In this document: in pieces, positions 16,430 through 38,517 of the stretch
Numbering within the stretch: position 1 is the stretch's first letter
Layout of the letters: each line of letters begins with the position of its first letter
IMG/VR virus record: IMGVR_UViG_3300034072_001386
Coordinates: 1 to 45,323 of that record
Reading direction: 5' to 3' (one strand)
Origin: a virus
DNA: 45,323 nt
Translations under genes and position numbers: made by a program
Notes under the pieces: generated by a model
What the model saw: the letters and a program-made list of their open reading frames with translations, nothing else
What the model was told of the DNA's origin: nothing
Database searches by the model: none

Positions 16430-19400
16430 TTAGGCAGTTGCTGCCAGCGCGGCATTGGATACAACGTCAGCGGCTTTTTCAAACAAGGCGGCAATCTCTG
16501 CATCGCTGCCATGCTTTTCAAACAAGGCCTCCAAGTTGTCAAAGTCCACTGTCAGCGGGTCTGTCTTGCCGTCTGCAATGCCTTGCAGGTACTGCAGGGC
16601 TGCTGTGCGCTCAGGGTCTGCGCTTTGCGGCTCTTGTGCTGCGGTTGCATGCTTGGCAATCGCTGCATCAATCGTCGCCTTTAAACCCTCAAACATTTTG
16701 AATGCATCCTGCATATCAATCTCTCGCAGCTTGTTCGGCTTGCGCGCATCTAGCTTGTTATTGACTGAGTGCGCAGTGTCACGGTCAACACCGTAAGCAG
16801 CCATTAACAAGCTGTCGCGCCCACTCTTGCTGAATGTTTCCATCAAATCAATTTGCGCTGCGTCAGTCATGCCTTCAAAGCTGCTCAGGCTATATGCGAT
16901 GTCCTTGAGATACTTTGCAGCTTCCTCGATTGTTGAGCCTTCTACATACTGCTTCGGCTTGGTGCTTTCAGATTGCTTTTCCTGCATCAGCTTTGCAAAG
17001 CGTTCGCCCGCCTCCTTTGGCATGCTGTCCATATCGGGGAAGGTGTCGAATGGGTACTGCTGCCACATTTCCTGCTGAATAGCGGCCTCAAGCATTCGCA
17101 AATCGCCCTCTTGGACGTATTCATAGTAGTTAGCCGCGTACTCATGGCCAGCGAAGTGCTGCGCGAGCTTTTCCACTGCCTCTGCGCGCTCAGATTCGGT
17201 GTGCAGGCGGCGAATTTCAAAAGATTTCAACTCTTTCTCTGTCAGCTCACGGCTATAAACCGCAACCCCATGGCGCGCTGTACTGGCAATGTCTGGCGTA
17301 GCTGGGTCAACGCGCAGGAAGCCATCTTGCGGAATTGCTCCCGGCCCTGCAGGACGGTTTACCAGCGCATAACGGTACTCAGTGCTCGCAGTGGTGTTTT
17401 CTGACTCTGGCATTGGCTCATTGGCCTGTGCTTCACGCTGCAACTGCTCCAAGCGCTGGCGCGTGCGGCGCGCTTCGGCGTTGGTGTTTTTCAGCTCATA
17501 GTCAGGAAAGCCCACGCGGCCCGCAAAGTCCTTTTTGAACAGGCCTTCAATGGTCGTTTCGCTCCAGCCCATGGCGGCAAGGCCTGCGCGGTCGTTCTTG
17601 CGCACCAGCTTGTTTGCACTGCGCATCAACTCGCTGTAGCCCTCCAAGTAGGCCAGCTTCGCCTGCAGCTTGGCAATGGCATCTGGATCGGTGCTGTAAA
17701 TCTCCCCCTTGGGCTTAGCCCTGAGCAATGCATTTAGGCGTGCTACGGGCGTGTCTGCGGCCTGCACAGGCTCTACCTTGGGTTCTGGCTGCGGCTCTGG
17801 CTGCACTTGCTCTTGTGGCGCTGGCAGTGCCTGCACCAGCTCTGCCAGCTTGGCGGTGATTTCCTTGGCCTTGGAGCTTTCCAGCGCCACAGCATCACCG
17901 GCTGCGCCCGTGTACAGGGTCACAAAGCCACCCTCGGAGATAGCTGCACGCGCGGCAATCTGGCCATCCTTGCCGATCTGTGCGGACACGCCGAAGTGCG
18001 TGGCACCGTCAAACAGGGAGCCTGTGTGCAGCGATGCCGTGAAGTCACCCCACACCACCTGAGCCCCGGCTGCTTCTGCGGCTTTTTCCAAGTCCAAATT
18101 GGCGCGCACAAAATCCAGCGACTTGCCGAAAAACTCGCTGTCTTCGTCGTCCACGATGCCGTCATCACTGGATGGCGCATCGTCGCTGTTTTCTGCCCAG
18201 TCTTTGGCGTCAATTCCCTTCGCAACCTCTGCAGGATCATCCCCCACGCGGGCGATGTAATCGAAACTGCCGTTGAAGTCGATTTCATCCAGCATGCGGC
18301 TGTCAGGGCTCATAACAATTTCTGTGCCGCGCGGGCTTTCTACCGCCCACTGACCTCCCTCGGTTTCTTCGTCTGGATTGGTGTTTGGCTTGCCGTCCTG
18401 CGTCAGCTTCCAGCCCAGCTCCTGCAATTCCTTGGCCACACCTTCAATCAGCTCGCCCAACTGGCCAAAATCGCCGGACGCGCGGGCCTTGGCCACCTTG
18501 ACCTTTTCCATAATTGCGCGGACGCGATCAACCAGCTTTTGCATATTCATGTGCGAAGGCATTTCAGGCAATCCGCGCGCAATCAAATCCTCGCACGCCT
18601 GCAAGTAGCCCAAAATCTCGCCTTCACCAACATTTGCCAGCTTGGCCAGACTCGCATTGCCGTACTCAAGGCGGTGATTCAGGCACCATTCCAGCGATTC
18701 ATAGGCCTCGCGTGCCTCTTTCTTGGTCACTGCCTTGACCTTGGCAGGCTTGGCCAGCGCCAGCACATCAGTACCCTTCACCAGCTTGAGCTTGGCGGCC
18801 ATTTCTTCGGCGGTCAGGCTCTTGCCTTGCATGGCATGACCCATACCCGTGAGCACTTGGTTGGCCAACCAGTCGTAAATGTCCTGCGCGCTGCCGGTCT
18901 TGGTCTGCTGCATGCCCGATTGCGTGGCCTTGGCTTCGTAGTCGCTGCCCTTGGCCTCCAAGGTCACATATTCGCTGCTGCGCGACTTGCCAATCAGGTA
19001 CACAGCGGCGTACTTTTCTGCCATGGATGAGTCCCACCACTTGTCAGACGTGGCGGCAGGCTCTTGCTCTTCTGCAGCCTTGCGCGCTGCCTCTGCCTCT
19101 TGCTCGGCCTTTTGCGCCTCTTCCATGGCCTTAGCCTTGTCGGCATCCCACTGCTTACCGGCTTCCTGTAGCACCTTGGCGGCTTCGGCGGGTTCGGCCT
19201 GCGCCACCCACTGGGCCTCTACTACGCCTGTCAGGTTGCGGTCGTCCATTTCGCCGCCACCGATCCACGCATAGGGGTCGGACTTAACCCGGTTTTTTAG
19301 CGCAGTCATTACCTTGGCTTCCCACTCGCTGCGGGTCATTCCAAGGTTCTTGCTTTTGTTCTTTGCAGCTTCGATCTGCGCAATCTGGTGCTCTTCCAAT

Positions 19401-20632
19401 TCCAGCTTGGCCAGCTCCAAATCCTTCTGTGCGGCGCTCAGCTCAGCCTCCAGCCCCTGCACCTCACCCTTGAGCGTTTCAATGGCCTGCAGGCGCTCGG
19501 CGCGCTTGCCGTTGGCACGCTGGAATGCGGCGCTGTTTTTGTCGGCCAGTCGCATCATGCGGCGCGCAACTTCGCGCACGTTCAAGTCCTTGCCCAGCTC
19601 GGGCGCGACAACGATGGTCACGTCCTTTTTATTGAGCATCCATTTCCACGAAATCAGCTCGTCGTCAGGGTTGATCTTGCTGGGGTCGGCGTCCGGGTTG
19701 TGCAGGTACACGCTGATTGTCTGCCCATCGCTCAGCTCATACACCACAGCCACTTGTGCGGTGCCGCGCTGCTTAAAGGGGTCGGATACCTGCATGGCCT
19801 GCGTTTTAACGGCCACGTTGGTGACGCGATCCATGGCCGCGCGCAGCAGGCCCATGCGCTGCTCTAGCTTCACAAATGGCGTCACCAGCGCATCCAGCGC
19901 CAACACCGATTCATTGTCGGGGTCGCTCAAAATGTCGGCCATGCTGGCGCTGTCCAGCAGCAAGCCGCCTGCGCCGTCATCACGGCGAATGTCGTAGATC
20001 AATTGGTCGAGGTTGCCGCCAATGGGCAACGCTTCGCCATTCCATGCCGTAGGCTTCATGGCTGGGCTTTCCTTGGGGTTATAGGGGAGGTGCTGGGGGT
20101 CAGCAGGACGGTCTAAGCTGGCGTACTTGAGCCACCAGCGGAATTGATCGAGGGTCATCGGCACGATGCTTTGCAGGCCTTCCCAGCCCAGCTCGTAGCT
20201 GGCCATGTACGCGGCCCGCGCGGCCTCTTCGCTGCCAAAGCACAGCATGGCCTTGTGCTCGTCAAAGCGGCCCTGAAACCCTTGGTTGATGACGTACACC
20301 GTGCCGCTATCGACCTGCGCGCCGATAAAGCAGTCCACGGCATCACCATCGGCCCCCTTGGTGCCCTGCAAGTAGCCGTAGTGCGCGCCCATGACGTTGC
20401 GCCACTTGCGCCCCGTGGTCTTGCTGCACTTTTCGCGCACGGAGCCTTGGGGCTGCTCGATACACAGCGTCAGGCCTTGCCACTGCACGCGGCCCACTTT
20501 GTAGTTTCCAGCGTTGCAGGTCGCATCACTGGGGCGCTGCTTGCCAAAACCGAAGGCACTGGCGTGCGCTGCTTGGTCTATCGCTGCAAGCATTGCGTCA
20601 AAAGACGCGGGAGGTGGAATATTTGATGGCAT
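16430..20632 (-). CDS. Large polyvalent protein with N-terminal pyrophosphatase-like domain (DdrB-like)
   Basis: About 1400 residues. The N-terminal 180 carry the phage InPase-like signature: MGAHYGYLQGTKGADGDAVD near 81-100, then FIGAQVDSGTVYVI and GRFDEHKAML. LLLDSASM near 224-231 may be a protease cleavage site that frees the N-terminal domain. Long coiled-coil and Ala/Glu-rich stretches follow (about 400-560). Near 1150 a 'YALVNRPAGPGAIPQDGFLR' block matches a segment I associate with DdrB-like anti-restriction proteins. ATG 20632 was chosen over GTG 20686 because the late-promoter element lies between them; no clear Shine-Dalgarno precedes it. Confidence 0.75.
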   Translation of the reverse strand: MPSNIPPPASFDAMLAAIDQAAHASAFGFGKQRPSDATCNAGNYKVGRVQWQGLTLCIEQPQGSVREKCSKTTGRKWRNVMGAHYGYLQGTKGADGDAVDCFIGAQVDSGTVYVINQGFQGRFDEHKAMLCFGSEEAARAAYMASYELGWEGLQSIVPMTLDQFRWWLKYASLDRPADPQHLPYNPKESPAMKPTAWNGEALPIGGNLDQLIYDIRRDDGAGGLLLDSASMADILSDPDNESVLALDALVTPFVKLEQRMGLLRAAMDRVTNVAVKTQAMQVSDPFKQRGTAQVAVVYELSDGQTISVYLHNPDADPSKINPDDELISWKWMLNKKDVTIVVAPELGKDLNVREVARRMMRLADKNSAAFQRANGKRAERLQAIETLKGEVQGLEAELSAAQKDLELAKLELEEHQIAQIEAAKNKSKNLGMTRSEWEAKVMTALKNRVKSDPYAWIGGGEMDDRNLTGVVEAQWVAQAEPAEAAKVLQEAGKQWDADKAKAMEEAQKAEQEAEAARKAAEEQEPAATSDKWWDSSMAEKYAAVYLIGKSRSSEYVTLEAKGSDYEAKATQSGMQQTKTGSAQDIYDWLANQVLTGMGHAMQGKSLTAEEMAAKLKLVKGTDVLALAKPAKVKAVTKKEAREAYESLEWCLNHRLEYGNASLAKLANVGEGEILGYLQACEDLIARGLPEMPSHMNMQKLVDRVRAIMEKVKVAKARASGDFGQLGELIEGVAKELQELGWKLTQDGKPNTNPDEETEGGQWAVESPRGTEIVMSPDSRMLDEIDFNGSFDYIARVGDDPAEVAKGIDAKDWAENSDDAPSSDDGIVDDEDSEFFGKSLDFVRANLDLEKAAEAAGAQVVWGDFTASLHTGSLFDGATHFGVSAQIGKDGQIAARAAISEGGFVTLYTGAAGDAVALESSKAKEITAKLAELVQALPAPQEQVQPEPQPEPKVEPVQAADTPVARLNALLRAKPKGEIYSTDPDAIAKLQAKLAYLEGYSELMRSANKLVRKNDRAGLAAMGWSETTIEGLFKKDFAGRVGFPDYELKNTNAEARRTRQRLEQLQREAQANEPMPESENTTASTEYRYALVNRPAGPGAIPQDGFLRVDPATPDIASTARHGVAVYSRELTEKELKSFEIRRLHTESERAEAVEKLAQHFAGHEYAANYYEYVQEGDLRMLEAAIQQEMWQQYPFDTFPDMDSMPKEAGERFAKLMQEKQSESTKPKQYVEGSTIEEAAKYLKDIAYSLSSFEGMTDAAQIDLMETFSKSGRDSLLMAAYGVDRDTAHSVNNKLDARKPNKLREIDMQDAFKMFEGLKATIDAAIAKHATAAQEPQSADPERTAALQYLQGIADGKTDPLTVDFDNLEALFEKHGSDAEIAALFEKAADVVSNAALAATA
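19284..19296. promoter_or_regulatory. Dispersed operator site 8 (A-tract variant, inside polyvalent gene)
   Basis: TTAACCCGGTTTT, extended by further T, encodes KNRVK in the polyvalent protein. Confidence 0.6.
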
Positions 20633-29069: not shown

Positions 29070-29846
29070 TTAGCGGCTCAGGCCCATTTGACGGCGCATG
29101 CGCATGGACTTGGCGCGGCGCATCATGGCGCCGGCACCAAAGGCCTTGGAGCGCGCTTTGCGCAGCGCCAGCTTCTGTTTGGACGACAGCTTGGGGGTGC
29201 CAGAAATGCGCTTGCGAATAATCACCTTGCGGCCACCGCGAATCGCCACCTTCTTTTTGTAGGCGCTGTCCATGACCGGCTCTTGGTCTTCGTCAGTGAA
29301 CACCACCGAGTCCAGCAGCGCGCCCTCGGCATCGTCGCCATCTGGCAGCGAAGCGGCCAGCAGTTCACGCACGCGCGATGCAGCGGCGCCGGCTTCCTCC
29401 AAGTCGTCGCCAAAGATAGCTTCGGCATCTTCGGCGCTGGCACCCATGTTCTGCATGTAGGCGCTGGCCGTGGAGAAGGCTTCCAGCGCCACGGCTACCT
29501 CGTCAGGGCCAAGCTCGCCGTCCGCGTTTTCATCAGCAATGCCAATCAGCGTGTTGACCAGACGATCCGCAAGCGATTCGCCGGGCTCCAGATCGTCGGT
29601 GCCCACCCACTGATTGACCACCGCCACAGCAAACGTAGAGGTGTACTGGTCAGCAAATGCATCGGTGGCGCTGTCCAATGTGGTCTGCGCTTCCTTGTCT
29701 TGGGCGGGCTGCTTGCCATTGTCGGCATCTTTGCCAGCGGTGGCGCTGTCCAGCGTGGTATGCGAAGCGCTGATTGCGCTGGCGGCCTTGATGATGACGC
29801 TGGCCTGTGCCAGTGCCACGGGATTGAGGTTATTCAAGAGGCTCAC
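29070..29846 (-). CDS. Virion protein with EF-hand loop and releasable basic tail
   Basis: 258 residues from a GTG with AAGGAT upstream. It has four DS motifs: LDSA (32-35), LDSA (57-60), LDSV (178-181) and MDSA (192-195). Residues 105-116 (DENADGELGPDE) fit a canonical EF-hand calcium loop. The middle is acidic. Residues 196-258 have no Asp or Glu and about 22 Lys/Arg, e.g. KVIIRKRISGTPKLSSKQK and RRAKSMRMRRQMGLSR. If the prohead protease cuts after the Ser of the last motif, this 64-residue protamine-like piece would be freed inside the head. It follows the sheath gene. Confidence 0.65.
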   Translation of the reverse strand: MSLLNNLNPVALAQASVIIKAASAISASHTTLDSATAGKDADNGKQPAQDKEAQTTLDSATDAFADQYTSTFAVAVVNQWVGTDDLEPGESLADRLVNTLIGIADENADGELGPDEVAVALEAFSTASAYMQNMGASAEDAEAIFGDDLEEAGAAASRVRELLAASLPDGDDAEGALLDSVVFTDEDQEPVMDSAYKKKVAIRGGRKVIIRKRISGTPKLSSKQKLALRKARSKAFGAGAMMRRAKSMRMRRQMGLSR

Positions 29847-29861
29847 TGCTGATCCTTTCTG

Positions 29862-31529
29862 TTACTTGGTGACTGCGTGGGTGGCGTGGATGGCGCGGGC
29901 GGTGCCGTCATAGCGCGCGGTGTAATCCATCACCATCGTGTCGTGGGGGCGTGCATCGCTGGGGCGCACGTACCAAATGGCGGCTTGGCCCTTCATTTCA
30001 GGCTCATTGCTGGGCTTGATCCAGCCTGCCGCAAGCGCGCCTTCAAAGTAGTTCTTGAACCACTCATTCATCTTTTTGACGGCTACCTGCATGGGGAGCT
30101 GCAGCAGTCCCTTGGCGTAGCGTGTCGCGGCTTCGTCGGTGTGCGTCACCATGTCCGCCACGTTCTGCAGCATGATGAGGCTGTTGCTCACAGGCGCGCA
30201 GGTCAGCGAGTCAAAGAACACGCAGCGCGAACCGCCGTCGTACTCGGAGAAGATGACCGGGTTGATCTTGGCCTTGGCCAGCGCCGACAGTTCCTTGTTG
30301 TCGGGGGTGTAGGTTTGCGTCATGCCTTGGCGGCTCACTGGCCATTCACGGCCTGCAATCGCATAGTTCTTGGGTGCAAAGCCCCTGGCATCCACCTGCG
30401 CGTTACGACCGCACGCATAGGCGATATTGAGCGTGGCCACACCAAAGTAATCCTTGGCATTGATACCGGCAGGATCAAGCGACTTGATGGGCGCCCAGTA
30501 GCCTTGCAGCAAGTGCGCTTCCTTTTGGCCCGTCATGTTGATCTGCTCCACGAAGGCCTCGGCCTGCTCGGGCGTCATCCAGCCGGGAACGTCAAAGCGC
30601 AGTTGGCGCGCAGTGCGGTAGGCCAGCCCTGCCAGTTGCGAGAACAGGGCAGGCGCTTGCGTGCCGCCGGAGCTGATGTAGGCGAAGTTATGGGGCGTGA
30701 ATTCCAAGCGCTTGCACGCGGCTTGGTAGTCTTCCATGCCGTAGGCAGTACCACCTTCGTCAAAGCACAGCAGCACGTCAGACTGCGCCCACTTGGCCAT
30801 GCCTGCATCGTTTTCACCGTAGGCAGCGCTATCGGGCAGGATGGAAACCTCTTGGGTGGTGCTCAGCAGCTCCACGTCATCGGAGAGGTTGGCCACCACG
30901 TCAGGCAACCACTTGGAGTTACCGTTATCGTCCAGCGCCCCCGGCACCAGCGATCCCGAAAATTCATGCAGTGCGTTGCCGTCCTTGTCAGACAGGCGCA
31001 CCGTAATTTCGTTGACCGGCACCTCGATACCGCTTTGCTTGGCGCTTTCTGCGCGGAACGAAAGTTTGATGCCATCGTTGAAGCACTCCAGATGCTTGAC
31101 GGCAAACAAGAAATCTTCTTCGGGGGCATCGTCTTGCACCGTGAAGGCGATGCTCTCGGGTACTGCTGCGACTTCGCCAGATGCAGCTTTGGCAGGCACG
31201 TACTGGCACACGGCCCACTTGATCTTGGCGGCAGGCGTCACAAGGCGCGAGATAACCGCCTCATAAGCACCTTGGCTCAGGGCTTCAATCACATGCACCA
31301 TGGCGTGATTGAGGGCGCTCAGGCGCACAGGCTCACCACGGCCCAGTTTTTTGCGCACATTGCCCTCATGCACCTTGAAGGCGCGGTCAATACGGCCACG
31401 GGTGGCGCGCATCGGAATGCCAAACACGCGGTCGCTGATGCTTTGCGTGGGTAGCTCGGACTTGTCTTTGAGCGGGTTGAGCTGAACACCGGATTCCGCG
31501 CCCAGTTGTCGAACAAATGCTGCTGTCAT
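29862..31529 (-). CDS. Tail sheath protein (P1 gp22-like)
   Basis: 555 residues. The sequence begins MTAAFVRQLGAESGVQLNPL and carries 'PSDARPHDTMVMDYTARYDGT' near the end, with a mixed alpha/beta centre: FAYISSGGTQAPALFSQLAG and FGVATLNIAYACGRNAQVDA. The length, the neighbouring capsid gene and the late promoter fit the contractile sheath; P1 likewise has its sheath and capsid genes side by side. AGAAGG lies 9 bases before the ATG. The assignment rests more on order than on a specific motif. Confidence 0.6.
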   Translation of the reverse strand: MTAAFVRQLGAESGVQLNPLKDKSELPTQSISDRVFGIPMRATRGRIDRAFKVHEGNVRKKLGRGEPVRLSALNHAMVHVIEALSQGAYEAVISRLVTPAAKIKWAVCQYVPAKAASGEVAAVPESIAFTVQDDAPEEDFLFAVKHLECFNDGIKLSFRAESAKQSGIEVPVNEITVRLSDKDGNALHEFSGSLVPGALDDNGNSKWLPDVVANLSDDVELLSTTQEVSILPDSAAYGENDAGMAKWAQSDVLLCFDEGGTAYGMEDYQAACKRLEFTPHNFAYISSGGTQAPALFSQLAGLAYRTARQLRFDVPGWMTPEQAEAFVEQINMTGQKEAHLLQGYWAPIKSLDPAGINAKDYFGVATLNIAYACGRNAQVDARGFAPKNYAIAGREWPVSRQGMTQTYTPDNKELSALAKAKINPVIFSEYDGGSRCVFFDSLTCAPVSNSLIMLQNVADMVTHTDEAATRYAKGLLQLPMQVAVKKMNEWFKNYFEGALAAGWIKPSNEPEMKGQAAIWYVRPSDARPHDTMVMDYTARYDGTARAIHATHAVTK

Positions 31530-31581
31530 TGTTTAAAACCTTCTTTTGTTGGATGTCTGCGATAAGGGCGCGGCATATCCA

Positions 31582-32088
31582 TTAGTCGGCTTGCACAGTC
31601 ACGCCGGCCGCAAACCCATTGAGTTCGCACAGGGCTTGCACATCGGTCGCAAAGCGGTGCAATTGGTCTGCATTGCGAAATGTGGCGGGCTGGGTGGTCA
31701 GCTCTGGCAGGCCTGCTACGTGGGCCAGCGTGAGGCCTTGCAGCTCAGGGAAGGTCACGCGGCGGGGCATTTGGTTGGTTACGGTCACAGACAGCGGGAA
31801 ACCACGCGCCACCAGCTCCTGCGCAGCATCGCCGTTTGCATTGGAGTCAGGGCCAATCGCCACATTCAAGGGCGCTTGTGCGGCCTGCTGCGCGCCTTGC
31901 TGGCTGTCCGCTGCGGCAGTCGTGGCTTGTTGGGTGTCAGTGCTGGCGCTGGTGGTGGCGCTGTCAGTCACTGCACCTGCTTGCTGGGTGGCTGCAGCAT
32001 CGTCGGCGGCAGTTGCCGATGCGTTTGCGGCGGCGGCTGTTGCTGCGCCAGCGCTAGTCTTTGCGGGTGCTTTTACTTTGCTATTCAT
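31582..32088 (-). CDS. Capsid-sheath intergenic protein with Ala-rich N-terminus
   Basis: 168 residues. The first 80 are Ala/Thr/Ser/Gln-rich and low in complexity (AGAATAAAANASATAADDAA, TTSASTDTQQATTAAADSQQ) and include VTDSATTS, a DSA motif. The C-terminal 85 residues form a compact domain (FPLSVTVTNQMPRRVTFPEL, LHRFATDVQALCELNGF). It may be a head-tail connector or decoration protein; the low-complexity part could be a tether or be removed by the head protease. Function unknown. Confidence 0.55.
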   Translation of the reverse strand: MNSKVKAPAKTSAGAATAAAANASATAADDAAATQQAGAVTDSATTSASTDTQQATTAAADSQQGAQQAAQAPLNVAIGPDSNANGDAAQELVARGFPLSVTVTNQMPRRVTFPELQGLTLAHVAGLPELTTQPATFRNADQLHRFATDVQALCELNGFAAGVTVQAD

Positions 32089-32122
32089 AGTCGTTGGAGT
32101 CTGAAAAAGTGATGGCCTGCGC

Positions 32123-32147
32123 CACGACTTAACCGGGTTAAGTCGTG
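32123..32147. promoter_or_regulatory. Dispersed operator site 12 (perfect, with 12-base arms)
   Basis: The core TTAACCGGGTTAA (32129-32141) is extended to a 25-base palindrome with 12-base arms, CACGACTTAACC on the left, and one central G. It is the longest palindrome of the set and lies between the capsid stop and the next gene. It has no T-run, so it is not a terminator. Confidence 0.8.
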
Positions 32148-32161
32148 ACGCCGGAGCTGGC

Positions 32162-33856
32162 TTAGCGCATGTTTGTGACCGTAATCAGCGCGGCACCCTT
32201 GGCGCTTGCGCGGTGGGGGTTGGCGGCTGTGAAGTCACGGGCGTAGAAGCTCATGCCTTCGTTTTGGTCATCACCGGCTTGCAGGTTCTTGACCGTGGGC
32301 GCATGGGAGTCGCCGAACACCACGGGGTTACGCGCGGAGTTGGTGGCACGGCCCACTGCCAAGATTTCAGCGCTGGTGTTGGTTTCGCTGACGCCGCGCG
32401 GGGTGTAGTAGCAGTCGTACTTGCCGAACAACTTGCCGTAGCGGTAAATACCGGGGCGCTCTTCCACGCCGGAAGGCTCAAAAATGTCGCGCGGCAGAGC
32501 TTCCCACTGGCTCTTGACATCCTTGCCTGTGTACAGGTGCGTGATGCCGTGATCCATGGTGTCTTCCACCATCTTTTGCGACTGCAGGCCCAGTTGCGCG
32601 CCGAAGTCCGACCAGATGCGCGAGCGCAGCATGTCGCTTGAGCGGCTTGCCCACTCGAAGTTGTAGGTGCCTGTGTTTTGCTCTGCAGCGCGGCGAGCCA
32701 GCGCCAGCGCGCGGTAGTGGCGCTCAATCGTGTACTGGCGCTGGATGGCTACCATCGCTTCGCTCAGGGGATCGAGGCCCAGTTCGTTGGCCATCTGGCC
32801 GCGTGCATCAGGCGACACACGGGTGCGGGCACGCCATGGGTTGGCATACAGGTCGAACACTTCCACCGAAGTACCCAGCACAGCGCTCAGTTGGGGCGCG
32901 CGTTCAAAGTTGATCGGCGCTTCAAAGTACACGGGCACCGTAGTAGGCAGTGCGGGTGTGGTGGTCAGTGCTGCAGCGCCGGTTTCGCAGTTATAGACGC
33001 CGCCAATGACGTACTTTTGACCGGCAATCGTGACTTCACCGTTGACGGCGCTAGCACCGGAGCCACCCATGCGGCTTTCAATCGCGCACAGCTCACCGTT
33101 GATGTACACCTCGCCACGACCGCGCAGGGTAGGTGCGCCATCAATCGTCTGCAGGCAGGTGTCGGCAGTCTCTTGAACGCCTGTGATCTTGAAATTGAGC
33201 TTGCCTTCGGCATTGGGGTATGCCTTGTGAACGCGCATGGACGAAATGAACGCTTGGCCAGCAAAAGCACCATCGAGCAGCGCGCCCTCCGCGTATGCGC
33301 CGGTTGCACCCACTGCGGTGTGCGACACGATGGCCAGCTTCGCTTGGTTGGAGCGCAAGTCCGCAGGCAGGTACATCGCCCAAGGGGTTGCCTCGGCCAC
33401 AGTGGCATAGAACGCCATCACAGCGCGGTTAGGCTGGATCGACAGGGGATCGTGCGCGGTGCTGAAAGCGCTGTCGAGCTTGAACTCATGGCGCGCGTGA
33501 AGGGTTTGCGCATATGCGTTGTGGATCGCTTGCTCCATCAGGTCAGCGGGCACAGCGCAGCCATTGGCGTGCTCGTATGCATGAGCGCTGTCCAAAATGG
33601 CCTTGGTGTATTCAGCTTTGCCGAATTCGTCCATGGCGATCTGCACAGTCTCAGGCACCTTAATGTCGCCACGGCTGACGGCTTCGCCAAGGAATTCAGC
33701 ACCACCGGCTACCGCGTGCGTGGCGCTGTCCAGTTGCGTACCAGACGCAGCGCCAGCGCGCACGGCATCAGCAGCCGCGTTTTTGATACCAGCCACCAAG
33801 GCGGCTACTTGCAAAGTGGAGCTTTTAGTAATGCCCACCTCGGTTGTCTTGCTCAT
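32162..33856 (-). CDS. Major capsid protein (P1-like)
   Basis: 564 residues from ATG at 33856, with GAGAGGA upstream; the 45-codon extension to 33991 runs into late-promoter element D. The first 130 residues look like a pro-region with three LDSA motifs (42-45, 88-91, 127-130). After FKLDSAFSTAHDPLS comes the mature-like part, beta-rich with many Ala and aromatic residues. Removal of an N-terminal pro-region of this length is known for T4 gp23. It leads the capsid operon and sits next to the sheath gene. Confidence 0.75.
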   Translation of the reverse strand: MSKTTEVGITKSSTLQVAALVAGIKNAAADAVRAGAASGTQLDSATHAVAGGAEFLGEAVSRGDIKVPETVQIAMDEFGKAEYTKAILDSAHAYEHANGCAVPADLMEQAIHNAYAQTLHARHEFKLDSAFSTAHDPLSIQPNRAVMAFYATVAEATPWAMYLPADLRSNQAKLAIVSHTAVGATGAYAEGALLDGAFAGQAFISSMRVHKAYPNAEGKLNFKITGVQETADTCLQTIDGAPTLRGRGEVYINGELCAIESRMGGSGASAVNGEVTIAGQKYVIGGVYNCETGAAALTTTPALPTTVPVYFEAPINFERAPQLSAVLGTSVEVFDLYANPWRARTRVSPDARGQMANELGLDPLSEAMVAIQRQYTIERHYRALALARRAAEQNTGTYNFEWASRSSDMLRSRIWSDFGAQLGLQSQKMVEDTMDHGITHLYTGKDVKSQWEALPRDIFEPSGVEERPGIYRYGKLFGKYDCYYTPRGVSETNTSAEILAVGRATNSARNPVVFGDSHAPTVKNLQAGDDQNEGMSFYARDFTAANPHRASAKGAALITVTNMR

Positions 33857-33931
33857 GTTGTCCTCTCGGAAGTTAAAAACACGCCGACCGATGGGCCGAC
33901 ATGACAAGATTTTTGGAGTCCGGGCAGGGGT

Positions 33932-33957
33932 GTTTTGGGCGCGTTTTCTGCGCGTTT
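33932..33957 (-). promoter_or_regulatory. Late-promoter-like element D (capsid operon)
   Basis: The minus strand reads AAACGCGCAGAAAAC, GCGCCC, AAAA. It is about 86 bases upstream of the capsid ATG; a long leader of about 70 bases follows. Confidence 0.65.
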
Positions 33958-34122
33958 GCTGGGGGTGGTGGATTGCGGGCCGCAAGTACACGGGTTACAC
34001 CGTTTCAATTACATACCTGCGCCACCCCGAAATCACCCCCTAAATAAGCAGCGCAAGGCGTTGATTGCCTTCCTTTTTAAGCTATCTATTTAATAGCTGT
34101 TTGGCGCGCGAGATGGCCCGTG

Positions 34123-34764
34123 CTACTCAAGGAAAAAGGCCGAATTAACCGGGTTAAGAGGCTCGGTTTCTTGGGTGTCTTCATGGGGCGCGTCGCCGGT
34201 TTCCACTGGCAGGGTATCGCTGCTTTCGTCGTCAGGCTGCGCGCCTTCGGCCAAGTCAAAATCTGCCGCGCGACTGAGCATGTAGCGCGGCAGGTAGGGC
34301 GGCATTTCCATGGTGGGCTGCACCGTGGCGATTTCGTAGGCCAGCCGCGCTGCATCGGGCGCATCACCCAGCACAAAAAGCACCAAATCCTTGGTTTTCA
34401 GCTCTACAGGCAAGGCGGGCGCTTCGCCAAGGGCAGGGGGCGGAGGCAGCTCCGTGGCCAGCGCATACGAAGCCATGGCATCCCCCCCGGCTGGGGCGTC
34501 CAGTGCCTCGGTCATGCTCATGCCTTGGCCCATGAACTGCTCGGCACGCATGGCGTAGCCGTTGGCCAAAAACTCATAGTGGTAGTTGGGCTCGTCTTGC
34601 GAGTCCAGAACTGCCGCACCCCCCAGTGTGGGCATGCCTCCGAAGCTCTCGGGGCCGGTGCGATCCACCACCTTGCGGAAAAACTGCACGCTCCACGCAT
34701 TGGGGTGACGGCGAATGACATTCAGGGCCATGCGCTGGATGCCGGTTGATACGTTGTAGAGCAT
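34123..34764 (-). CDS. Virion assembly protein (unrecognised)
   Basis: 213 residues. The N-terminal half holds VVDRTGPESFGGMPTLGG and VLDSQDEPNYHYEFLANGY, with one VLDS motif near 52-55. The second half is acidic, with a Pro/Asp/Glu-rich tail that ends LNPVNSAFFLE, where LNPVN comes from dispersed operator site 13. It is the last gene of the neck operon and may be a neck or completion protein. 266 bases of non-coding DNA with late promoter D follow before the capsid gene. Confidence 0.55.
   Translation of the reverse strand: MLYNVSTGIQRMALNVIRRHPNAWSVQFFRKVVDRTGPESFGGMPTLGGAAVLDSQDEPNYHYEFLANGYAMRAEQFMGQGMSMTEALDAPAGGDAMASYALATELPPPPALGEAPALPVELKTKDLVLFVLGDAPDAARLAYEIATVQPTMEMPPYLPRYMLSRAADFDLAEGAQPDDESSDTLPVETGDAPHEDTQETEPLNPVNSAFFLE
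34145..34157. promoter_or_regulatory. Dispersed operator site 13 (perfect)
   Basis: TTAACCGGGTTAA near the 3' end of the gene ending at 34123; it encodes LNPVN. Confidence 0.7.
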
Positions 34765-34767
34765 GGG

Positions 34768-35892
34768 TTATGCCTTTCGGTTGCGTTCCAGCAGCGCCAG
34801 CATGGCTTGGGGCGTCATGCCGTATTCCTTGGCCAGCAAATTGAGCATTTCCTTGCTGTCCTTGGCCTTGGCTGCGTTTTTGCTGGCGCTGGCCGTCTGC
34901 TTGGGTGGTGGCGCTGTTTTGACGGCCTGCGTGAGCGCCTTTTTCGCAATGATCTGCTTGCGCTTGGATAGCTGCTCCGCGCTGGTGGAAATGGTGCGGG
35001 CGCGCTTGAACATTTTGGCGGCCTGCTCTTCCATTTCGCGCTGCGTGATCTTGTTGGCCGTCTTTTTAATGTCCGAAGGTCGGCCTGCAGCGCGCCCTTT
35101 TTCGATCAAGCGCGACAAGAACGCGGTCACATGCGCGCCTTGCGCAATCTCGGCCATGGTGCGCACAACATGCTTGCAGGCTACCCCCGTGAGGTTGGCA
35201 TTCGTCACCTTGGGGTAGCCCGTCTCGGGCCTGCCCGCGTTGAAGGCTCCGATGGTGCTGATATAGCGGTAAAAGAAGGTGTGTCGCCCGCAGTCACAGT
35301 CGAATTTCAAGGGCTCCTGCCGCAGCCAGCGCGCCATGGTCAGGGGCGAGCCCTGCGCGCCTGCTACGGCAGCCTCATAGCTCATAAATTCCACCGTGAC
35401 GTAGTGCTTGGTTTCCTTGTATTTCAAGCTGGCATTGGTCAGGAACTGCACGCGGCCTGCTTTGGCCTGCACGGGCATGGACACGCGAATTTCTTTTTGC
35501 GCCCGCTGCTTGTCTATGTGTGCCGAAAAGTCCAGCACCTGCTGCGCCGTAATCCCCCCGCGAAAGTTCTGCTGGACGGTCTTGATGTTGCCCTTGAACG
35601 CCTGTATCTGCTTGGCAGACAGCGCCACCGACTGCTGGCCCATGAGCACTGCAGAGGTGCCCAGCGTTTCCTCCAGCACCTTCGCAGGCGTCCATTTCGC
35701 ACCACTGGCCACCTGATTAGGTGACAGGATGTTGGCCGCTCCTACGCGCCTGCCTTCGTCGGCCTGCGCCAGCGCGCGCGCCTCGGCTCCAGCATTGCGC
35801 ACCTTACCCAAGTCCGCGATCTTGGATGCGAACATTTTGCGCAGCGAGATAGACGGCTTGGCGGTGGCGGTGGTCTTTTTCTTCGCAGCCAT
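34768..35892 (-). CDS. SWIM-type zinc-finger virion-operon protein
   Basis: 374 residues from ATG at 35892, which overlaps the previous stop (TAATG). Cys199, Cys201 (FDCDCGRH) and Cys239, His241 (GVACKHVV) make a CxC...CxH SWIM zinc motif, a fold usually linked to DNA or protein binding. The N-terminal 60 residues and the C-terminal 80 are basic (MAAKKKTTATAKPS; SKRKQIIAKKALTQAVK). Its place among neck and tail genes suggests a virion or assembly role, perhaps a DNA-contacting one. Confidence 0.6.
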   Translation of the reverse strand: MAAKKKTTATAKPSISLRKMFASKIADLGKVRNAGAEARALAQADEGRRVGAANILSPNQVASGAKWTPAKVLEETLGTSAVLMGQQSVALSAKQIQAFKGNIKTVQQNFRGGITAQQVLDFSAHIDKQRAQKEIRVSMPVQAKAGRVQFLTNASLKYKETKHYVTVEFMSYEAAVAGAQGSPLTMARWLRQEPLKFDCDCGRHTFFYRYISTIGAFNAGRPETGYPKVTNANLTGVACKHVVRTMAEIAQGAHVTAFLSRLIEKGRAAGRPSDIKKTANKITQREMEEQAAKMFKRARTISTSAEQLSKRKQIIAKKALTQAVKTAPPPKQTASASKNAAKAKDSKEMLNLLAKEYGMTPQAMLALLERNRKA

Positions 35893-36227
35893 TAGTAGGC
35901 CTTCCAAATAGGCTCACCGCCCCGGCGCAGCTCAGGGATGGTTTCAAAGCCCGCTTCGCGCTTGAGCTGCAGCAGCTTTTCAGGGCTGGGAACCACCAGC
36001 ATGGTTTGCTCCAGCGGGTCGGTGATGTGGTCAAGCCCTGCCGCTGCTTGGATCGTCAGCGCTTCGTGCCGGGTGCCATACACGCGCTGGCTGATCTTGG
36101 TCAGGTCTAGGCGCTCAGCCGGTGCTGTCTCGATAAACAATGCCCCGCGCGTAAATGGCTTGGCATGCAGGCAAAAGCGGCGCACCACGCGCCAGTAACG
36201 CATCGCTGCGGCTGTATCTACGTCCAT
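35892..36227 (-). CDS. LysM-like tail protein (gpX/gp53-like)
   Basis: 111 residues. The core 'DLTKISQRVYGTRHEALTIQ..GLDHITDPLEQTMLVVP' has the pattern of LysM-like tail proteins such as gpX or the gp53 wedge: a helix, YGT, a second helix and a 'V-x-P' end. It is followed by a helical tail. This small protein would sit on the baseplate or tube. It is coupled to the SWIM protein gene by TAATG. Confidence 0.55.
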   Translation of the reverse strand: MDVDTAAAMRYWRVVRRFCLHAKPFTRGALFIETAPAERLDLTKISQRVYGTRHEALTIQAAAGLDHITDPLEQTMLVVPSPEKLLQLKREAGFETIPELRRGGEPIWKAY

Positions 36228-36235
36228 GGATCACC

Positions 36236-36727
36236 TCAGATGGAAAAGCCCATGCCGCGCTGAAAAGCCCCCAGCGTGTCGAACATGGCAAAGCAGTCCT
36301 TGACTGCGGATTGACTGCGCGCGGCCCAGCAAGTGGCCACCACGCCCATTTGCTCGCACGTCACGCCAGAGTCGATGCGAACCTTGGGGCCGGATTCGTC
36401 GTATTCCCCCACTTCAATGACGCTGGACGGCGATGCGCGCTCGGTGCCCGACTCCAGCCGAAGCATTCGGCCATCGCCCTTGTCGGTGCCGTAGAAGTCC
36501 AAGAACGCCTGCACCCCCTCCCGGAAGTGCTCAGGCAGCATCACCAAGTCCACGTCCCCGGCGCTGTCGAAGCCCACCACCAAGCACCCCTTGGCGCGGG
36601 CCGTCTGGAACTTGGCCAGCTTTTTGATTTTGAGCAGTCCCGTGCCGGGGTCATAGACGCTCAGCACCGTGCAGGCCTTGCCGCTGTAGCCGGTGCTGTT
36701 GGCTTGGATCATCACAAGGTCACTCAT
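36236..36727 (-). CDS. Small virion-operon protein (unrecognised)
   Basis: 163 residues, beta-rich at first (ACTVLSVYDPGTGLLKIKKL, GCLVVGFDSAGDVDLVML), then VIEVGEYDESGPKVRIDSGV. It includes FDSA and RIDSG, but these lie in strand-like contexts and are not obvious cleavage sites. It overlaps the previous gene by 4 bases, so it is part of the neck operon. Function unknown; a head-tail joining or tail-completion role is possible. Confidence 0.5.
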   Translation of the reverse strand: MSDLVMIQANSTGYSGKACTVLSVYDPGTGLLKIKKLAKFQTARAKGCLVVGFDSAGDVDLVMLPEHFREGVQAFLDFYGTDKGDGRMLRLESGTERASPSSVIEVGEYDESGPKVRIDSGVTCEQMGVVATCWAARSQSAVKDCFAMFDTLGAFQRGMGFSI

Positions 36728-37605
36728 ACCGACTTCACCCCCGCGTCTGTGACCTCGCGCTTGGAAATGTCTGCCCCGCTGTCCTGCGCCTGCTGCGTGC
36801 CATCCACTTGACGCAGGAATGGGAAGCCCTCGACCTGCACCGACTTACCAGGCAGATTGCCCTCATAGCCCGTGACAGGCTTGGCTACGCCAGTGCCGGG
36901 TGCCCCGCCACCACCTACACCACCACCAGCGCCAGCAGCAGGCAGAACCTGCAGCGTTCCGTCCGCAGCCAAATAGGTTTCTCCAGCCCCCACAGCGCGA
37001 TAGATGGGCTGTGTGGTGCAGAAACTCACGTCCACGGCCATCATGGTCAGGCTCTTAACGTCCGTCTGGATCAGGTTGGGCAGCACGTCCGTGGTGTCGA
37101 GCTGGGCGGGCCAAAACGAATCAACCCCTGCAAATTTCCAGTTGACCTCAAACACATGGTTGCGCCAGTTGCCCAGCCACAGCACAAACTGGCTGGCCAA
37201 GCTCTCGGCGGTGTCGCTGTCGTGTGCAGCAAATAGCACTTGCACGCGGTAGTCGCGCGCCTGTGTGCGCAGCTCAAACACGCGCTGCTGGTCATCGCCC
37301 GGAATGATGACGTGTACCGGCGAAGAGATTTCCTTGTTGCGACCTGCCTGCGTGGGGTTCACATCGCGCGCCACGGCCACCAGCGCCACCGGCATCTTGT
37401 GGGGCTTGCTTGGCCCTGCATTGGGTTCATTGCGCTGCCACAGCGTCAGCATGTCCTCTGCCGCGTCCACCATACGCCCCGGCACGATGGCCACCGCATG
37501 GGATGGCTCGCGCGCCACGAACTCTTGCAGCGCTGGCGTCATGGGGGCTACTTGCTTGAAAAACCGCACCATCCATGCCGCGCAGGCTTCTTTGAATTGC
37601 TGCAT
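36724..37605 (-). CDS. Neck/tail-completion protein (unrecognised)
   Basis: 293 residues. The N-terminal half is helical (QQFKEACAAWMVRFFKQV). A beta-rich section follows (VQVLFAAHDSDTAESLASQF, LWLGNWRNHVFEVNWKF). A Gly-rich linker (GAGGGVGGGGAPGTG) near 225-240 then leads to a short tail. It lies directly after the protease/scaffold gene. The layout suggests a tail terminator or connector, but no signature proves it. Confidence 0.5.
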   Translation of the reverse strand: MQQFKEACAAWMVRFFKQVAPMTPALQEFVAREPSHAVAIVPGRMVDAAEDMLTLWQRNEPNAGPSKPHKMPVALVAVARDVNPTQAGRNKEISSPVHVIIPGDDQQRVFELRTQARDYRVQVLFAAHDSDTAESLASQFVLWLGNWRNHVFEVNWKFAGVDSFWPAQLDTTDVLPNLIQTDVKSLTMMAVDVSFCTTQPIYRAVGAGETYLAADGTLQVLPAAGAGGGVGGGGAPGTGVAKPVTGYEGNLPGKSVQVEGFPFLRQVDGTQQAQDSGADISKREVTDAGVKSV

Positions 37606-37608
37606 GGC

Positions 37609-38517
37609 TTACCCCAGCAGCACAGTGCGGGCGAACTCGGTGGCGCGACTGATAGTGGTGCGCACGGGAGATTCCTTCTCTTTGGCCAGCTCCTGCGGCT
37701 GCAGCAGCTCCGCGTGCATGAATGCATCGGTCTGCGCTTGCAGCATGTCCGCCGTTGCGCTGTCGTAGAGCATCACCCCCCGACCCTGAAACGCGCCTGC
37801 CGTGGCGCTGTCGTACTGCGTGGCCAGCTTGGGATCACGCTTGGCCAGCAGCGATAGCAACTCTTCGATCTGGGCATCACGCTCTTCGATCATGTGATTG
37901 AAGCGCATACGCTCGGCGTGGGCGTTGTCTAGCGACACTTCCAGCGCCATCTGGTGCTCCAGCGCGATATAGCGGTCAATGTCCTGCAGTGACAGGCGCT
38001 GTGCGTGCGCATCGTCCAGCAAGCAGTCGTACAGCGCATCGTGGGCCTGCTCATAGGCGCTATCGAGCGTGAAGCCGCGATTGCCCATGTAGTTGGGGGC
38101 AAAGACGTAATCCATGCCGCCGAAGTAGCGCTTTGGCTCGTTGATGACGCTGGAAAAGCCCCCGACACGCGAGCTGTAGGCCTTGCGCGCCTTTTCTCCC
38201 GCGTCCGTGTCCAAGAACTCTTGTTCGTGCTCAATCGTGCCGTCTTGGTAGGCCTTGGCGAACACGGTCACGACTGCAGGCTCTACGTTCACCTGAGTTT
38301 TGCCATCCATGCCGCCCTCTGCTGCCACCGCGCCGAATTTGACCCGTGGCCAGTGGCCATAGAACCCCACCAGCGTGCGCGCCTTGATGGCCTCTTGGCA
38401 CGCGGCGCTGTTAATCATGCTGTTGACCAGCGGAATGTTGAAGTTGCGCGGGCTACCGAATGCCTTGTAGCCGCGATCCTTGAGGTTGTAGGCAATCTTG
38501 CCGGTTTTCTCGCCCAT
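37609..38517 (-). CDS. Candidate prohead protease fused to scaffold
   Basis: 302 residues. Residues about 1-150 look like a T4/HK97-type prohead protease fold: VGFYGHWPR (His55 candidate), NVEPAVVTVFAKAYQDG, and VGGFSSVI with Ser122/123 as candidate nucleophile. FTLDSA (150-154) follows, then an acidic, helical scaffold-like part (about 155-230, e.g. ERDAQIEELLSLLAKRD), then YDSA at 235-238 and 251-254. The DSA motifs would let it cut itself free from its scaffold. It opens the operon behind late-promoter element E. The catalytic residues are proposed, not shown. Confidence 0.55.
   Translation of the reverse strand: MGEKTGKIAYNLKDRGYKAFGSPRNFNIPLVNSMINSAACQEAIKARTLVGFYGHWPRVKFGAVAAEGGMDGKTQVNVEPAVVTVFAKAYQDGTIEHEQEFLDTDAGEKARKAYSSRVGGFSSVINEPKRYFGGMDYVFAPNYMGNRGFTLDSAYEQAHDALYDCLLDDAHAQRLSLQDIDRYIALEHQMALEVSLDNAHAERMRFNHMIEERDAQIEELLSLLAKRDPKLATQYDSATAGAFQGRGVMLYDSATADMLQAQTDAFMHAELLQPQELAKEKESPVRTTISRATEFARTVLLG

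Follow-up and report, generated by a model that had tools for sequence, protein, structure and literature searches.

Does a short motif that recurs in several proteins of a phage mark the sites at which its prohead protease cuts them? This question is raised by a 45,323-nucleotide stretch of viral DNA (IMG/VR virus record IMGVR_UViG_3300034072_001386, positions 1 to 45,323), referred to below as the window. In this stretch the motif [LYM]DSA is found in the major capsid protein precursor, in a prohead protease (Pro), in an EF-hand protein and in a DarA-like polyvalent protein, all encoded on the minus strand. Prohead proteases that recognize short motifs and act on several head substrates are known, and a preliminary description of the window had suggested that the motif is a cleavage site of this kind. 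We find that the motif is enriched in these proteins, that its sites are homologous to sites in phage P1, and that its acidic residue changes in concert between Asp and Glu across P1-like phages. Very probably, the Pro of the window phage recognizes this motif in the form Phi-D|[S/A]-Phi (where Phi is a hydrophobic residue and the bar marks the cut) and cleaves after Asp in four substrates, enzyme and sites having changed together.

The window is a 45 kb record of a P1-like phage with a contractile tail. Homologs of P1 gp23, gp22, gp21, PmgG, Pro and DarA were all matched by BLAST or hidden Markov model searches, and the P1 gene order 23-22-21-pmgG is retained (capsid, sheath, EF-hand protein and PmgG homologs). 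Among catalogued phages, Xanthomonas phage Rb1 is the nearest relative, and a scan of viral contigs for relatives returned one partial relative only. We group the phages and elements compared by the acid that precedes the cut. The D-type set (Asp) comprises the window, phage Rb1 and elements from Aeromonas, Acinetobacter (including the Acinetobacter oleivorans element, AciOlei), Pseudomonas and Burkholderia, while the E-type set (Glu) comprises P1, D6 and elements from Enterobacter kobei (EntKob), Serratia marcescens (SerMar) and Vibrio alginolyticus (VibAlg).

Motif enrichment and the probable capsid maturation site

All copies of the motif listed in the preliminary description are present at the residues given there; the single LDSA of the polyvalent protein, near residue 226, is also present but lies at 19946-19957, outside the interval 29070-38517 to which it had been assigned. 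In the 46 open reading frames (ORFs; 14,086 amino acids), [LYM]DS[AV] occurs 11 times versus about 1.3 expected, and the occurrences are confined to the four proteins. The capsid, Pro and EF-hand proteins together hold 10 copies, as compared to a mean of 0.14 in within-protein shuffles, and none of 5000 shuffles reached 10. By contrast, there are no copies in the 39 remaining ORFs of the window (0.97 expected from shuffles), and the lone LDSA of the polyvalent protein does not reach significance (p = 0.15; shuffle test). When the same test was applied to phage T4 as a control, [LI]xE[AGS] was enriched most strongly in the scaffold gp22 and then in the capsid gp23, but not in tail or portal proteins.

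The capsid precursor (32162..33856, minus strand; 564 amino acids from an ATG start; phrog_1014) is a homolog of P1 gp23, with 20% identity to it and 45% to the Rb1 capsid. A capsid profile built with P1 gp23 matches the Gp23 structure 9ukm, while Pfam and NCBIfam contain no family for this protein. For P1, the N-terminus of mature gp23 was determined by Edman sequencing as SVAAEM, hence a cut at E120|S121 (AMLE|SVAAE; PMC9024508). An unguided MAFFT alignment of window-type capsids with P1 places the LDSA at residues 127-130 of the window capsid (33467..33478) on the column of this mapped cut, and we therefore predict D128|S129 as the main maturation bond. The preliminary description had the region right, in that the capsid would be cut near residue 128, but it placed the cut after the Ser, so that the mature protein would begin at residue 130 (AFSTAHD). 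Given that the P1 bond lies between the acid and the Ser, we predict LD|SA instead and a mature capsid that starts at S129 (SAFSTAHD). The predicted propeptide (residues 1-128; 33473..33856) ends on the P1 column.

This column is well conserved across the family. It reads Phi-D-[SG]-x in D-type relatives and Phi-E-S in P1, D6, EntKob, SerMar and VibAlg (for example, MLDSVRSS in Aeromonas versus MLESVAAE in P1), and Asp is present in 92% of 26 sequences, compared with a mean of 61% in the flanks. In the more remote capsids, encoded by phage-plasmids of Burkholderia, Pseudomonas, Acinetobacter and Aeromonas, Phi-D-[SG] is retained at the cut column despite neighbouring indels, AciOlei excepted. 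Of the two other copies in the propeptide, LDSA 42-45 (33722..33733) is a second candidate site that appears as FDSA or LDSA in most D-type relatives and is absent from Aeromonas and P1. LDSA 88-91 (33584..33595) is doubtful; most relatives have ILDG at this place, and we rejected it as a general site. We propose that during head assembly Pro would act on the capsid precursor at this bond, D128|S129, and so release its first 128 residues as a scaffold-like propeptide.

Concerted change of Asp and Glu across P1-like phages

Each relative that we examined uses one acid type in all of its proteins, and no mixed genomes were seen. Glu occupies the homologous sites in the capsid, protease, gp21 and DarA of P1, D6 and the Enterobacter, Serratia and Vibrio elements. 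When P1 was left out of the definition of the motif columns, it proved to have Glu at 5 of the 14, versus 7 of 91 among the other columns with a conserved Asp (Fisher p = 0.009, in a test that counts columns and not independent events). The five are the capsid site, the Pro site, two gp21 sites and the DarA site, while the nine other lineages tested have between 0 and 2. An alignment-free analysis gave the same pattern: PhiD[SA]Phi, and not PhiE[SA]Phi, is enriched in the capsid, Pro and EF-hand proteins of 15 further D-type genomes, with A. oleivorans the weakest (p = 0.025). In P1 the preference is reversed (11 E motifs versus 2.0 expected; 2 D motifs versus 2.0 expected), as it is in D6, EntKob, VibAlg and SerMar, and P1 control proteins (tail, portal, terminase and DarB) are enriched in neither motif. 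The motif as originally written, [LYM]DSA, behaves as a cut-site consensus but is too narrow, because in relatives it takes the form Phi-D-[SAG]-[AVILST], with Asp or Glu as the acid depending on the phage. Given that the acid is uniform across all four substrates within a phage, we propose that the specificity of the enzyme and the sites in its substrates changed together.

As to the number of switches, the Glu-type Vibrio element falls together with the Asp-type Aeromonas elements in the best capsid tree (support 97), a grouping that implies either two switches or a reversal. The best tree thus favours two independent switches, but the approximately unbiased test does not reject a single change from D to E (p = 0.096). 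In a search of the protease for the residue that sets Asp or Glu, several columns separate the two types (residues 8, 125, 126, 131 and 133 of the window Pro), none of them decisive without a structure. Separately, we observe that the Asp-type Pro of an Aeromonas element (L034:19887-20855) sits on a long branch (0.79) among Glu-type Pro sequences, with low support for its exact position; this branch might be a trace of a change in specificity.

In the papers searched, where coverage of subscription journals was limited, we came across neither an Asp-type prohead protease nor a switch between Asp and Glu. A branch that cuts after Asp, with substrates to match, would amount to a natural experiment in the co-evolution of a protease and its substrates, and close pairs for comparison are available (MLDSV in Aeromonas and MLESI in Vibrio).

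The protease and its other candidate substrates

Pro (37609..38517, minus strand) is 39% identical to the Rb1 "prohead core protein protease" and 22% identical to P1 Pro, and its BLASTP match to P1 Pro (E about 1e-10) places it in the P1 Pro family. The putative catalytic residues His55 and Ser122 are invariant across the family in the contexts GH55 and FS122, and are comparable to NH85 and VS140, the catalytic residues of the T4 enzyme. Based on the homology to P1 Pro, the conserved H55 and S122, and a best, though non-significant, structural match of a low-confidence model to the T4 protease structure 5jbl, we infer that Pro is the cutting enzyme of the window phage. It would cut after Asp. 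We also note that P1 Pro (L002:19014-20033) and its relatives carry the RefSeq label "tail fiber protein" and the PHROGs label "tail" (phrog_1801), probably a spreading misannotation of a prohead protease.

Pro carries three copies of the motif. LDSA 151-154 (38056..38067) lies directly after the conserved domain and is a candidate for self-cleavage; the corresponding residues are LDSV, MLDSA or LDDV in D-type relatives and MFESA (P1), MLESA or MMESA in E-type relatives. YDSA 235-238 (37804..37815) has LDSV, VLDAV or VLDSA at a similar place in relatives. The third copy, YDSA 251-254 (37756..37767), falls in a window-specific insertion that relatives lack, and was rejected as a general site. 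A site after the conserved domain and others toward the C-terminus fit what would be expected if Pro cuts itself in the region after its own catalytic domain, as SPN3US gp245 and phiKZ gp175 do.

The DarA-like polyvalent protein (16430..20632, minus strand; 1400 amino acids from the ATG) contains the Pfam domains InPase (37-169), DarA_N (245-367) and DarA_C (1085-1143). In P1, about 9 kDa is removed from the N-terminus of DarA, and the cryo-electron microscopy model begins at residue 70 (PMC12810830). The P1 sequence DLLE68|AISS aligns with LALD247|ALV of the window, in which the conserved site LDAL 246-249 (19886..19897) would be cut at D247|A248, at the edge of DarA_N; the Pfam domain itself starts at the predicted cut in both P1 (66) and the window (245). 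At this column, the D-type genomes compared have Phi-D-[AS], and each of the five E-type genomes (P1, D6, SerMar, EntKob and VibAlg) has Phi-E-[AS]. Here the preliminary description had pointed to a different residue, LDSA 226-229 (19946..19957). That copy is only partly conserved (LDSA, MDAV or FDSA in window-like elements and in some from Pseudomonas; missing from Acinetobacter, Aeromonas and P1), lies about 20 residues upstream of LALD|ALV, and was rejected as the main DarA cut in favour of the family-wide site. Cutting at D247|A248 would remove the N-terminal segment of this head protein; the InPase domain (window positions 20126-20524) is located wholly inside that segment and would be removed with it in the window phage.

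The fourth protein (29070..29846, minus strand) is a homolog of P1 gp21 (31% identity; 46% to the Rb1 ORF). A canonical 12-residue calcium-binding-type loop, DxNxDGxLxxxE (DENADGELGPDE), identifies it as an EF-hand protein at the level of sequence, and the loop residues D105, N107, G110 and E116 are invariant in 13 sequences. It has weak matches to calerythrin and NCS-1 and no family in Pfam or NCBIfam; a fold search was discarded, as the model was too poor (predicted local distance difference test score, pLDDT, of 51) and the matches were meaningless. Window-type phages share the canonical loop, but in P1 gp21 it is degenerate, so that the P1 line may have lost the capacity to bind calcium.

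The best-conserved site of this protein is the junction of its acidic body with a basic C-terminal tail (window MDSAYKKK). MDSA 192-195 (29262..29273) corresponds to LDAVYRK, FDATYRK or MMDAVVK in D-type relatives and to LTEAFKK (P1), MLEAVRK (D6) or MLEALKK in E-type relatives. At a minimum, Pro would cut here, at D193|S194, freeing the strongly Arg/Lys-rich tail (residues 194-258; 29070..29267) that is conserved from the window to P1. Further candidate sites are LDSA 57-60 (29667..29678), whose column is D in D-type relatives and E in P1; LDSV 178-181 (29304..29315), seen as [IV]D[SA]F in several relatives; and LDSA 32-35 (29742..29753), in an N-terminal region where Phi-D-[SA] sites shift position among relatives.

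What could such a protein be? The authors of the P1 work state that the P1 scaffold is not identified (PMC9024508). When P1 ORFs are ranked by Glu-motif enrichment, gp21 comes first, ahead of gp23; gene 21 is essential by CRISPR interference (CRISPRi; PMC10695390); and gp21 is missing from the table of P1 virion proteins detected by liquid chromatography-tandem mass spectrometry, even though PmgG and BplB, which are encoded beside it, were detected. Based on these three lines of evidence, we propose gp21 as the internal scaffold of P1. The preliminary description had called the EF-hand protein a virion protein, which, given the absence of gp21 from the P1 table, it may well not be. We think it reasonably likely that the EF-hand protein and gp21 are internal scaffold or core proteins chopped up by Pro, like T4 gp22, which is digested by the T4 protease. 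On the other side, the P1 authors propose that the capsid propeptide itself is the scaffold (PMC9024508), and CRISPRi of a gene within an operon can be polar. In addition, the annotation of P1 gp21 reads "baseplate or tail tube" and its gene lies between those for the sheath and the tube-linking protein PmgG, as would fit a tail or baseplate assembly factor with incidental motifs. We regard this role as possible but rather unlikely, for gp21 is the most motif-enriched of the P1 ORFs tested, the column of the basic-tail cut changes from D to E along with that of the capsid, and gp21 is missing from the table of virion proteins in which its neighbours are listed.

Third in the P1 ranking is Ulx (L002:9995-10435), an encapsidated Dar protein that may be a further Pro substrate. 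As a separate observation, a His/Lys-rich module of about 80-90 residues that starts with GDFxGHPFRGNQ is present both in an EF-hand protein (L014:13262-14317) and in the DarA-like protein of Rb1 (L005:3801-7463), head proteins that are unrelated and come from different phages. Phi-D|[SG] motifs border it at either end, as if the protease released it.

Alternative explanations and comparison with known systems

With the corrections given above, the enrichment of the motif and the alignment of the capsid site with the mapped gp23 cut of P1 support the idea that the motif marks prohead-protease cleavage. Several observations nevertheless speak against it. Some excess of the D motif is also seen in Rb1 control proteins, and the E-motif ranking of D6 is topped by unrelated small ORFs, so that the loose motif by itself lacks specificity. 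At the capsid cut column, AciOlei has Asn. As for the enzyme, the model of Pro is poor (pLDDT 56), its top three Foldseek matches are chains of the T4 gp21 protease 5jbl at non-significant values (E 0.04-0.1), Pfam and NCBIfam contain no family for it, and a profile alignment of Pro to the T4 gp21 sequence fails. The loose motif also occurs at background rates in many ORFs, which together with the acidic and Ala-rich composition of the EF-hand protein might suggest that the copies are due to chance or to an abundance of Asp, Ser and Ala. Given the within-protein shuffles, which yield 0.14 copies where 10 are observed, and the conservation of sites across lineages at 20-50% identity, we consider the probability of this to be negligible.

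If the motif is a cleavage site, the same protease could cut after the Ser (LDS|A) and produce a mature capsid from A130. Small residues do flank that bond, and we found no D-type phage capsid that had been sequenced at the protein level. However, the P1 bond at the aligned column is E|S, the DarA sites have Ala in place of the Ser (LD|AL), and the acid is the residue that switches in concert, as expected of an acid-specific protease pocket. The T4, phiKZ and SPN3US proteases all cut after Glu, and that of SPN3US prefers Ser just after the cut. We find a cut after the Ser very improbable. Equally little credence goes to the proposal that the motif is not cut at all and serves as a docking or packaging signal for co-assembly into the prohead. 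It is true that P1 DarB reaches the capsid via an N-terminal signal (PMC9024508), and the motif is common to proteins expected in the prohead. But one copy corresponds to a mapped P1 cut and another to the missing N-terminus of DarA, and a single acid type per phage is better explained by a protease pocket. The placement of the copies also argues against docking. They had been described as lying in linkers and at domain borders, and this holds for capsid 127 (the border of propeptide and mature protein), Pro 151 (the end of the conserved domain) and EF 192 (where the basic tail begins), and roughly for the polyvalent protein; in SPN3US, propeptides often carry several cut motifs.

Cleavage by Pro after Asp is thus the explanation that we prefer. 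As a broader view, we lean slightly toward a scenario in which the maturation protease switched its requirement between Asp and Glu together with all of its substrates (the capsid, itself, the scaffold and DarA), perhaps repeatedly, and in which gp21 and the EF-hand protein are the missing scaffold of P1, possibly calcium-regulated in Asp-type phages.

The closest known system is that of P1 (PMC9024508, PMC12810830), which has a homologous protease, capsid, gp21 and DarA, with the capsid and DarA cut sites on matching columns; it differs in having Glu before the cut, whereas the window phage has Asp. The P1 papers searched describe no consensus motif, no processing of gp21 and no self-cleavage of Pro. 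For P1, the questions of the scaffold and of the targets of Pro now become predictions at the level of residues (gp21, DarA E68|A69 and self-cleavage of Pro at MFE|SA). The T4 gp21 protease system is similar to the one proposed here in that the protease digests the internal scaffold gp22 and trims the capsid, the motif is enriched in scaffold and capsid, and there is a weak fold match to 5jbl; unlike the window system, it cuts after Glu, has a different gene order and shows no detectable sequence similarity in the protease. Finally, the phiKZ gp175 and SPN3US gp245 proteases (MEROPS S80; PMC5694885, PMC10052503) resemble what is predicted for Pro in having a short motif, many substrates that include packaged proteins, and C-terminal self-cleavage, and SPN3US shares the preference for Ser after the cut (PMC5694885, PMC10052503), but both enzymes cut after Glu (A-X-E in SPN3US).

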